The notes under the pieces: model-generated
Seen by the model: only the letters and a program-made list of their open reading frames with translations
What the model was told of the DNA's origin: nothing
Database searches by the model: none
Assembly: GCA_032027045.1 (NCBI GenBank)
Contig: JAVSMU010000001.1
Coordinates: forward strand, 1,323,579 to 1,387,578
Direction of reading: 5' to 3'
DNA: 64,000 bases
Origin: Truepera sp.
GTDB taxonomy: Bacteria > Deinococcota > Deinococci > Deinococcales > Trueperaceae
In this document: piece after piece, positions 47,849-53,224 of the stretch
Layout of the letters: every line of letters starts with the position of its first letter
How positions within the stretch are numbered: the stretch's first letter is position 1
Made by a program: the position numbers and the translations under genes

Positions 47849-49018
47849 CTACTGCGCCGCGACTTTCGGCGGACCTGCCTGCCCCGCCAACTCCAGCATC
47901 ACTCGCTCCAGCACGTCTACCGCGAGCAGGTACTCCCGCAACACCAGGCGCTCCTCAGGCGTGTGGTCGAGGTTCGAATCACCCGGTCCGTAGGCCACCA
48001 TGGGAGCGTTCCAGTGGGGCGCCACCACGTTCATGTCTGAAGTGCCGGTCTTGAGGCTCGGCCGAGGGCTGCCGCCGACGCTGCGGATGGCGACTCGGAA
48101 GGCCCGGGCGAGTTCGCTGCCGCTATCCGACCGGTAGGCGTCGAGCGGTGCCGTGAGGTCCACGGTGACACCGCTGGGCAGGGGCAGCCCGGCGATGGCG
48201 CCTGCCAACGCTGCTCCGCTCCAGCGAGGCGGCAGCCTCAGGCTGACGCGGGCGCGGCACCACTCCTCGAGACCGTCGCCGCCCGACTCCATGGCTATGA
48301 GCGACACCTGCAGACGCTCGAACAGCCTCTCCACGCCAAGGTTGTCGCGGTTCACCCAGTCGCGCAGACCAGTGAACGCGTCCACGGCGGCCTCGGCGGC
48401 CGTGGTTTCCTCCCGCGAGGAATGCGCGCCCCTGCGCACTGCCGTGTACGTAACCCCGAGCCGCCCCTTGTAACCGAGCGTGTATCGCTCCCAGCCGCTC
48501 GGCTCGCCCACGATCACGAGGTCGGGCACCTGGTAGGCGGCTGTGGCGTAGTGCGCGCCGCGGCTGCTGGGTGCTTCCTCCTCGACCGCCCCGATGAACG
48601 TGAAACTCAAGCGCTCCCACACGCCCACGGGCAGGCGCGTGGCCGCCACGAGCGCGGCGCACAGGCTGCCCTTGGCGTCCACGGACCCGCGGCCGTGAAG
48701 CACGCCGTCCTCCACTCGCACCGGGATCTCGCCGGGCACCGTGTCCATGTGCCCCAAGAAGGTCACGTTGAGAGGCCCCTTACCCCACACGGCCACCGCG
48801 TTGCCGACGGGGTCGACGAACGCGTCGCGGGCCCAGCCGCGGGCGGCCGCCACCAGGAGCTCCGCCACGCCCCGCTCGTGGCCCGAGGGGCTGGGGTTGG
48901 CCACCACCCCGGTGAGCAGCCTCACCGCCTCGTGGTCCGTGAGGCCGCGGCCCGGCTCAAGGCCCGCGGACACGTGACCGCCTTTCGCCACCCCTGGCCG
49001 CGACCGGGTAGTGCTCAC
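47849..49018 (-). CDS. lysK: LysW-lysine hydrolase
   Basis: The 389-residue M20-family zinc hydrolase releases lysine (or ornithine) from the LysW carrier, the last step of the pathway. Metal ligands are seen in LGHMDTVPG (H), GRGSVDAKGSL (D), GAVEEEAPSSRGA (E-E), IVGEPSGW (E) and DSNLDHTPEERL (H). The first 28 residues are an extra N-terminal piece; a second GTG at 48973 is possible, but GTG at 49018 overlaps the lysJ stop as GTGA, like every other junction in the operon. Last gene of the unit. Confidence 0.92.
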   Translation of the reverse strand: MSTTRSRPGVAKGGHVSAGLEPGRGLTDHEAVRLLTGVVANPSPSGHERGVAELLVAAARGWARDAFVDPVGNAVAVWGKGPLNVTFLGHMDTVPGEIPVRVEDGVLHGRGSVDAKGSLCAALVAATRLPVGVWERLSFTFIGAVEEEAPSSRGAHYATAAYQVPDLVIVGEPSGWERYTLGYKGRLGVTYTAVRRGAHSSREETTAAEAAVDAFTGLRDWVNRDNLGVERLFERLQVSLIAMESGGDGLEEWCRARVSLRLPPRWSGAALAGAIAGLPLPSGVTVDLTAPLDAYRSDSGSELARAFRVAIRSVGGSPRPSLKTGTSDMNVVAPHWNAPMVAYGPGDSNLDHTPEERLVLREYLLAVDVLERVMLELAGQAGPPKVAAQ

Positions 49019-50183
49019 GCGGCCAGCTCCTCTGCCACCAACTCGACGGCGCGGTCGACCTCGGCGGCGCTCACGACGAGGGGCGGCAGGAACCTCACCA
49101 CGGTGGCGCCGGCGGCCACAGTCAACAGTCCGCGTTCCCGCAGCCCCGCCACCACCGGCCCTACCCGCTCGCGCAGCTCCATGCCGACCATGAGGCCGCG
49201 GCCGCGCACGTCTCGCACCCTCGGGCTGTTCAACGCCAGCAGGCCCGCCATCAGCCGCTCGCCCATCGCGGTCGCGTTGCGCAGGAGGTCGCGCTCCTCG
49301 ATCTCGTCCAGCACCGTCAACGCGGCAGCGCATGCGAGCGGGTTGCCGCCGAAGGTGGAGCCGTGCCCACCCCGAGGCATGGCGCGAGCCACGGTGTCCG
49401 TCATCAGCGTGGCCCCGATCGGCACCCCGCCGGCCAGCCCCTTGGCCAGAGTGACCAGGTCGGGGACCACCCCCATGCCTTGGGCGGCCAAGAACGTGCC
49501 GGTTCGGCCCACGCCGCACTGCACCTCGTCGAACACGAGCAGCGCGCCGTGTGTCCGCGTGAGGTCGCGGGCCCGCTCGAGGTAGCCCGGGGGTGCCACG
49601 TGGACGCCGCCCTCCCCCTGGATCGGTTCCACGAAGAACGCCGCCGTGGAGCCGTCGATGGCCGACTCCAGCGCCTCCAAGTCGCCGAAGGTCACGAACT
49701 CTGCCTCCCCAGGGAGCGGCTCGAAGGGGCGGCGGTAGCCCGCCTCCCAGGTAAGGGCCAGGGAGCCGAGGGTCCGCCCAGCGAAGCCGCGCTTGGCTGC
49801 GACGACCCGGGTGCGTTGGGTGGCAGCGCGCGCCCACTTGATGGCCGCCTCGTTCGCCTCGCTGCCGGAGTTGGACAAGAAGGCACGCTCGAGCGGCGCG
49901 CCGACGACCCGGAAGAGGCGCTCGAGGAACTCGGCCCGCACGTCGTTCGCCTGGCTCTGCGGGCAGACGATCAGCCGCTCGGCCTGCCTGGCGATGGCGG
50001 CCGCGAGCCGCCGGTTGCCATGCCCGACGCTGGCGATCCCTATCCCGGCCATGAAGTCGAGGTAATCGCGGCCGTCGGCGTCGTAGAGGTACGCGCCCTC
50101 CCCCCTCACGAAGGCCGCCATGGGCGAGTAGAGGGTCGAGGCGTGGCGAGCCTCGCGCTCCATCAGCGCGGCGGTAGCGGCCT

Positions 50184-50187
<4 letters not shown>
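49015..50187 (-). CDS. lysJ: LysW-lysine aminotransferase
   Basis: The 390-residue class III (ArgD/LysJ) PLP aminotransferase shows LSNSGSEANEAAIKWARAA and FFVEPIQGEGGV. It also has LLVFDEVQCGVGRTG (PLP-ring Asp) and the PLP lysine in VTLAKGLAGGVPIGA. It converts LysW-bound aminoadipate semialdehyde to LysW-lysine using glutamate. GTG start overlaps the lysZ stop (GTGA). Confidence 0.93.
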
Positions 50188-52871
<2,684 letters not shown>

Positions 52872-52875
<4 letters not shown>

Positions 52876-53036
52876 TCGCCCCAGTCCTCGGCTTCCTCGG
52901 GCGCCGGCTCGAGCCTCAAGGGATCGAGTCCGACGACCTCCAACTCCGCGCCCTCGTCGGTCACGAGGATCTCGCCGAGCATGAGGCTGGAAGGGTCTAC
53001 GGTCAGGCGTCCCTGGGGCGTGTCGATGAGTTGCAT
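52872..53036 (-). CDS. lysW: LysW amino-group carrier protein, cysteine-free variant
   Basis: This 54-residue protein ends in [20 protein letters not shown] then EDWGE, the universal LysW tail whose last Glu carries the growing amino acid. Typical LysW proteins have a zinc ribbon with two CxxC pairs in the N-terminal half. Here the matching spots read DTPQG and VTDEG and no cysteine is present at all. I chose the ATG at 53036 (GGAGG 5 nt upstream), which gives the usual length. First gene of the lysine operon. Confidence 0.93.
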
Positions 53037-53194
53037 GGTCTCCTCCATCGGCCGTGATCCAGCTAGCGCTGCTGCTGGCGTTGGCTTGTTCACTCAGTGG
53101 CCGGAGCCCGGACAAGCAACCCAGGCGTTCCGCGCTTTCGTTTCGAAGGTGTGACGACTTCCGAAGCCGGCGGCGGCACTGACGAACGAGGGGC

Positions 53195-53224
53195 AGTCTA
53201 GTTCGCCCCGCGGGAGCCTGTCAA
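53195..53224 (-). promoter_or_regulatory. Promoter of the lysW-K operon
   Basis: On the minus strand TTGACA (53224-53219) and TAGACT (53200-53195) are separated by 18 bp, nearly consensus. Transcription would start near 53188, giving a leader of about 150 nt before lysW. The leader contains a possible 29-codon ORF (GTG 53179 to TGA 53090) with a KRKR stretch and some short hairpins. The remaining gap to the MgtE gene (53225-53367) shows nothing recognisable. Confidence 0.75.

Follow-up and report, generated by a model that had tools for sequence, protein, structure and literature searches.

A 64,000-nt stretch of the Truepera sp. genome (GenBank assembly GCA_032027045.1, contig JAVSMU010000001.1, positions 1,323,579 to 1,387,578; hereafter the window) encodes a cysteine (Cys)-free LysW, an amino-group carrier protein, which is probably the working carrier of its operon; zinc would then be a structural staple in ordinary LysW that the partner enzymes do not recognize. 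The protein has 54 residues, like Thermus thermophilus LysW (3wwl), ends in EDWGE (residues 50–54) and contains neither Cys nor histidine (His), with TPQG and TDEG at the places of the two zinc knuckles. The initial annotation had reported the exact LysW length, the EDWGE tail and the replacement of both CxxC pairs, all of which hold; its position for the gene is also correct, and only the strand is changed here, to minus (53036..52872). The protein passes the cut-offs of both the TIGR01206 lysW profile (59.2 bits, cut-off 53.2) and PF21344 Zn_ribbon_LysW (36.1, cut-off 27), with alignments that start only at residue 19 and residue 17, respectively, the differing part being the knuckle half; among Trueperaceae, 32 genomes give a TIGR01206 match, and four of these fall slightly under that cut-off (50.2–51.2 bits). 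Having EDWGE with a terminal Glu and a co-encoded LysX with the GSWGR motif, it classes as LysW; it is not a zinc ribbon, a class defined by two CxxC knuckles and one zinc, nor a member of a second Cys-free form described below (NPxTG/DxxTG), its knuckles being shorter. Curated profile scores (Table 1) bear out the earlier assignment of lysX, lysY, lysZ, lysJ and lysK downstream of lysW; all six genes lie on the same strand and the first four junctions overlap. LysX, LysY, LysZ, LysJ and LysK each retain two or three Cys, hence there is no general avoidance of Cys.

The Cys-free lysW is the only LysW gene found in its genome and recurs across its family. The source genome is a single contig, 98.09% complete; a TIGR01206 profile search of it gave one real match (the next reached 11.9 bits, E 0.69), the DNA pattern for EDWGE followed by a stop occurs at exactly one site (backward control, 0), and no second LysW was found by protein, family-profile or DNA-pattern search. 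Two objections raised in the initial annotation, a second Cys-containing LysW elsewhere and a sequencing error, therefore fail, the latter because the same Cys-free form is present in 27 genomes and 53 distinct database sequences. We surveyed 111 Deinococcota genomes; 101 have LysW, all classified by script. These LysW fall into 67 with four Cys (Cys4) and 34 Cys-free, with none having one to three, so that in the surveyed genomes the four Cys are either all present or all absent. The form found in the window (window form), in which T-x-x-G and [ST]-D-[DE]-G stand for the two knuckles, occurs in 27 genomes, all Trueperaceae, or 27 of the 32 Trueperaceae with LysW, and Cys4 is retained in the other five (G074, G095, G096, G097 and G099). 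Seven genomes (three of family f3 and four Thermaceae) carry the second Cys-free form, also present in Deinococcus, in which the knuckle spacing is unchanged and the residues read N-P-x-[ST]-G and D-x-x-T-G, a motif present in 47/47 distinct sequences of that form. A LysW match is absent in 7 of 39 Trueperaceae and three other genomes, where true absence and draft gaps are indistinguishable, and a direct search of these ten gave chance-level matches only (best E 0.036). Our database search found 67 relatives of the window protein. P0002–P0056 have the window form, P0057–P0067 have four Cys (five in P0066), and the rearranged fragment P0068 has a single Cys. Not counting P0055, whose sequence begins past the first knuckle, there are 53 distinct window-form relatives, and the carrier body is Cys-free in every one (the two Cys of P0037 lie in an extension at its N terminus); those with a stated organism are all Trueperaceae, including Truepera radiovictrix (P0046).

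Other LysW-like proteins occur in some of these genomes. Of the second matches in Cys-free genomes, those translated (G082, G006, G007 and G034) were rejected as carriers, being two-ribbon or tail-less zinc proteins with no EDWGE; further weak second matches lie in G023, G024, G028, G008, G084, G098 and G108. A two-zinc-ribbon protein whose first ribbon is LysW-like is encoded directly upstream of lysW in G051, G006, G007 and G004, and its Cys are retained in two of these, G006 and G007, whose LysW is Cys-free. Small Cys4 proteins that resemble LysW but lack the EDWGE tail are encoded at L125 (G032), L129 (G038), L133 (G029), L131 (G034) and L126 (G082), the last with the C terminus DEDDYGES.

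According to PMC10433800, the GSWGR motif of LysX/ArgX recognizes EDWGE. The gene after the carrier encodes a G[ST][WFY]GR motif in 26 of 27 cases for the window form, 7 of 7 for the other form and 66 of 67 for Cys4, the two misses being cut-short loci. Few alignment columns separate the partners of window-form carriers from those of Cys4 carriers: with at most 15% overlap we found 0 of 293 in LysX, 2 of 385 in LysY and 3 of 274 in LysZ, and with at most 30% overlap 7, 22 and 18, respectively (for LysJ and LysK the comparison took in one Cys4 genome only). The strongest evidence comes from a natural exchange: in the Thermaceae genome G028, whose carrier is Cys-free (other form), LysX is identical at 273 of 276 positions to that of G043 and at 272 of 276 to that of G035, both Cys4. 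DNA identity between G028 and these two genomes is 49–67% across lysW, 93–99% at 100–800 bases past the lysW stop and 86–88% thereafter, whereas G035 and G043 share 87–96% across lysW. Recombination between Thermaceae appears to have moved lysX on its own. Among 89 genome pairs whose LysX are more than 93% identical, 75 have the same LysW type (LysW at least 85% identical) and 14 have different types, with LysW identity of 32/54 to 37/54; G028 is involved in 12 of the 14, and in the remaining two (G023/G025 and G024/G026) LysY is also close, at 322/340 and 313/340. Because near-identical LysX adjoins both Cys4 and Cys-free (other-form) carriers, LysX probably does not recognize its carrier by the zinc. 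The initial annotation had proposed that the enzymes recognize the carrier by features other than the knuckles, probably its acidic surface. The first part is favoured by the LysX exchange and by the EDWGE tail, the LysX GSWGR motif and a shared ELEVV...P region, all of them retained; the acidic surface is not, the net charge being −12 in the window LysW, whereas six other LysW range from −14 to −17. Recognition that does not rest on the zinc knuckles is thus better supported by these comparisons than recognition of an acidic surface.

Two side observations concern the partner enzymes. Sharp identity steps lie close to both lysX ends when G028 (L078) is compared with G043 (L139) and G035 (L089). 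In LysY, positions 75 and 250 of the window protein are mostly small residues in window-form genomes and bulky in Cys4 and other-form genomes; judged from the alignment, they are possible contact sites.

In the mechanism we propose, LysX would join the amino group of the substrate, probably alpha-aminoadipate, to Glu54; LysZ, LysY and LysJ would process the acid bound on LysW; and LysK would free the product. In ordinary LysW two Cys-x-x-Cys knuckles hold one zinc ion, whereas in the window LysW shorter turns (T-x-x-G and [ST]-D-[DE]-G) take the place of the knuckles and the hairpins would close on themselves, so that zinc would be a structural staple with no part in enzyme recognition. Structure prediction was a further check suggested in the initial annotation: by AlphaFold, the window protein is predicted to keep the small beta fold of LysW without Cys, its first knuckle reduced to a two-residue hairpin turn. 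Among PDB entries, Thermus LysW is closest to the window protein in sequence and one of the closest in fold, and a model of the other Cys-free form superposes on 5eio with a root-mean-square deviation of 0.8 over 46. The sequence, operon, single copy, conservation and purifying selection of lysW, the all-or-none pattern of its Cys, and near-identical LysX beside Cys4 and other-form carriers are direct observations; fold, shorter first turn, metal absence, activity and substrate are what we predict or infer, and the window LysW probably works without zinc.

Cys-free carriers also occur outside Deinococcota. A wider genome scan confirmed 318 LysW loci, and among the best 80 of these 15 are Cys-free: 13 window-form (12 Trueperaceae/Truepera and one Deinococci, largely the same genomes as in the phylum survey), one Thermaceae and one Bdellovibrionales. 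Ten database sequences share the Bdellovibrionales form (SPITG, DDPESG) and have no Cys up to the tail, and at locus L265 of this form lysX adjoins the Cys-free carrier gene. In the phylum of the haloarchaeon Salinarchaeum the tail pattern is present in 32 of 196 genomes, and 9 of the 30 loci read are Cys-free (DPxxG, DSPxTG; some of the nine nearly identical to one another) and 21 have four or five Cys. Chloroflexota were considered as a source of Cys-free carriers and rejected: all 78 LysW read in this phylum, that of an Anaerolineales genome, have four or five Cys (70 loci read; 144 of 400 genomes have the pattern). Two Cys-free designs are plainly distinguishable in these sequences. In one, CxxCG becomes [N/D/S]-x-x-[T/S]-G at constant spacing; in the other, so far seen only in Trueperaceae, the knuckles are cut to tight turns. 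It is likely that the LysW/ArgW zinc site is dispensable and has been discarded by these two designs in several lineages (Trueperaceae; Deinococcus and some Thermaceae; Bdellovibrionales; and archaea of the haloarchaeal phylum), and that the enzymes do not notice, with lysX recombining between zinc and zinc-free genomes. How many independent losses this represents is uncertain, because the archaeal, Bdellovibrionales and Deinococcus forms resemble one another. The direction of change within Trueperaceae is likewise not settled between swap, transfer and regain. In a LysX+Y+Z tree of 51 rows, with three other-form genomes (L075, L078 and L087) within the outgroup, the 25 window-form rows do not form one clade and imply two changes (approximately unbiased test, p 0.011), and Truepera groups with the Cys4 Trueperaceae; a constraint joining the five Cys4 Trueperaceae was not rejected (p 0.343). 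The tree was already known when this test was made and contains long branches, and LysX alone leaves the grouping unresolved. As a separate observation, a GSWGR ligase follows each of the nine archaeal Cys-free ArgW-like carriers (L355, L356 and L358–L364).

These data bear on several other explanations. The loss of all four zinc-ligand Cys, together with a knuckle half that does not align to the profile (residues 19–54 match), would be expected if lysW were a decaying or inactive relic whose work is done by another carrier or by acetylation. This is scarcely credible, given that no second LysW was found, that lysX overlaps lysW, that the ratio of nonsynonymous to synonymous substitution rates (dN/dS) is 0.14–0.35 with dS 0.7–1.7 (last 50 codons, against seven genomes), and that EDWGE, Thr6, Gly9, Asp14 and Asp27 are invariant in 26/26 distinct genome-derived window-form sequences; the gene is neither an error, a relic nor a decoy. 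A carrier that is Cys-free and still binds metal, through carboxylates or a partner, could draw on the conserved Asp14, Asp27 and Asp/Glu28 of a strongly acidic protein, but we consider it quite improbable: none of the 26 distinct sequences contains Cys and only 7 contain His (in six of them at residue 8), so that no conserved set of the usual zinc ligands remains, and the model shows just a two-residue turn at the first knuckle.

A change of job might instead accompany the loss of the zinc site, the carrier serving glutamate (for ornithine and arginine) or another amino acid. The route to alpha-aminoadipate begins with homocitrate synthase, and none was found over the cut-off in the source genome (G000:C1), where the two matches to the search are 2-isopropylmalate synthase and citramalate synthase; the carried amino acid is therefore uncertain and the source of alpha-aminoadipate unclear. 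The ligase beside the archaeal Cys-free carriers also has the haloarchaeal ArgX signature KAL in 3/3 looked at. Such a change of substrate is nonetheless unlikely. KAL stands beside archaeal Cys4 carriers as well (2/3; the third showed no motif), and the putative substrate signature of the window LysX reads RNSI, its NS as in Thermus (KNSV), rather than the KAL of archaeal ArgX-type ligases, with the placing of the signature taken by inference from PMC10433800. In addition, T. radiovictrix, which has the same carrier form (P0046), possesses 9 of 10 listed lysine enzymes, homocitrate synthase among them, the cell for aminoadipate aminotransferase being empty (table in PMC3356886). Judged by these signatures, the substrate is probably alpha-aminoadipate. 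Whole-cell zinc economy, as an adaptation to zinc-poor niches, is a doubtful driver of the Cys loss. Ribosomal protein L31 lacks the four-Cys motif in 10/10 genomes with Cys-free LysW against 4/8 with Cys4 LysW, a contrast drawn from 18 of the 111 genomes (L172–L189) and uncorrected for relatedness; against this, L36 retains three Cys in 18/18 genomes and in G006 and G007 the two-ribbon neighbour of lysW still has its Cys. This pattern may reflect a partial zinc economy.

The preferred reading, a working carrier that dispenses with zinc, can be set beside known systems. Zinc-ribbon ribosomal proteins with C+ and C− forms likewise lose Cys as a set while function stays, often as zinc-switched paralogs, whereas the window LysW is single copy with no C+ partner found. 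T. thermophilus LysW (3wwl, 3wwn, 5ein and 5eio) shares with it the length of 54, a near-identical C-terminal half and the operon partners, but its four Cys hold zinc (PMC10433800) where the window protein has none and shorter turns. The Cys-free LysW of Deinococcus and Thermaceae also lacks Cys, ends in EDWGE and has lysX adjoining in 7/7 genomes, but keeps knuckle spacing (NPE[TS]G, DDETG) and has a model near the Thermus structure. Haloarchaeal ArgW is an EDWGE carrier adjoining an ATP-grasp ligase, Cys-free at nine of the 30 loci above; it differs in belonging to the arginine pathway, and the Natrinema ArgW that has been studied has four Cys (PMC10433800). The same paper calls the Cys of the LysW family crucial and conserved. 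Databases already label the Cys-free proteins 'lysine biosynthesis protein LysW', and a Cys-free LysW is not described in the available parts of PMC3356886, PMC10433800 and PMC8305020 or in the literature searched, a scope outside which the main structure papers lie. What the initial annotation presented as a single oddity is thus real and not isolated, being the main form in Trueperaceae with other forms elsewhere: a conserved variant of a known carrier that is probably zinc-independent. All-or-none Cys loss while the partners stay intact would distinguish what zinc does for structure from what the enzymes recognize, and natural Cys4/Cys-free pairs would test what amino-group carrier proteins must keep. 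The protein would also provide a metal-free carrier scaffold that cannot be oxidized at Cys and would be an example of a small metabolic protein that has lost zinc repeatedly.

Table 1 Coordinates of lysW, its sequence elements and the downstream lys genes in the window (profile scores in bits)
Feature	Position	Strand	Remarks
lysW	52872..53036	minus	54 codons + TGA; 0 Cys, 0 His; ATG at 53036, TGA at 52874-52872
Thr-Pro-Gln-Gly (LysW residues 6-9), in place of first zinc knuckle	53010..53021	minus	Two-residue hairpin turn in the model
Thr-Asp-Glu-Gly (LysW residues 26-29), in place of second zinc knuckle	52950..52961	minus	One residue shorter in the alignment
EDWGE C terminus (LysW residues 50-54)	52875..52889	minus	Glu54, putative attachment residue (role per PMC10433800)
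GGAGGAG, Shine-Dalgarno-like	53040..53046	minus	3 bases ahead of the lysW ATG; read directly
TTGACA-18-TAGACT, sigma-70-like	53195..53224	minus	Upstream of lysW; match to consensus only
lysX	52030..52875	minus	GTG start overlaps lysW stop (GTGA); TIGR02144 348.9 (cut-off 275.6)
lysY (ArgC-like reductase)	50993..52033	minus	TIGR01850 331.1 (cut-off 233.6)
lysZ ([LysW]-aminoadipate kinase)	50184..50996	minus	NF010659 428.5 (cut-off 223)
lysJ (aminotransferase)	49015..50187	minus	NF042418 435.9 (under cut-off 700); TIGR00707 413.2 (cut-off 410.05)
lysK ([LysW]-lysine hydrolase)	47849..48973	minus	NF003367 413.7 (cut-off 363); start picked by eye

Directly upstream of lysW, the window carries a gene for MgtE. 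Elsewhere, in the phylum of G111, two or three EDWGE-stop sites lie within about 200–400 bases of one another (G164:C141:6459-6856; also G350, G230, G318, G246, G386 and G198) and are probably tandem lysW copies.
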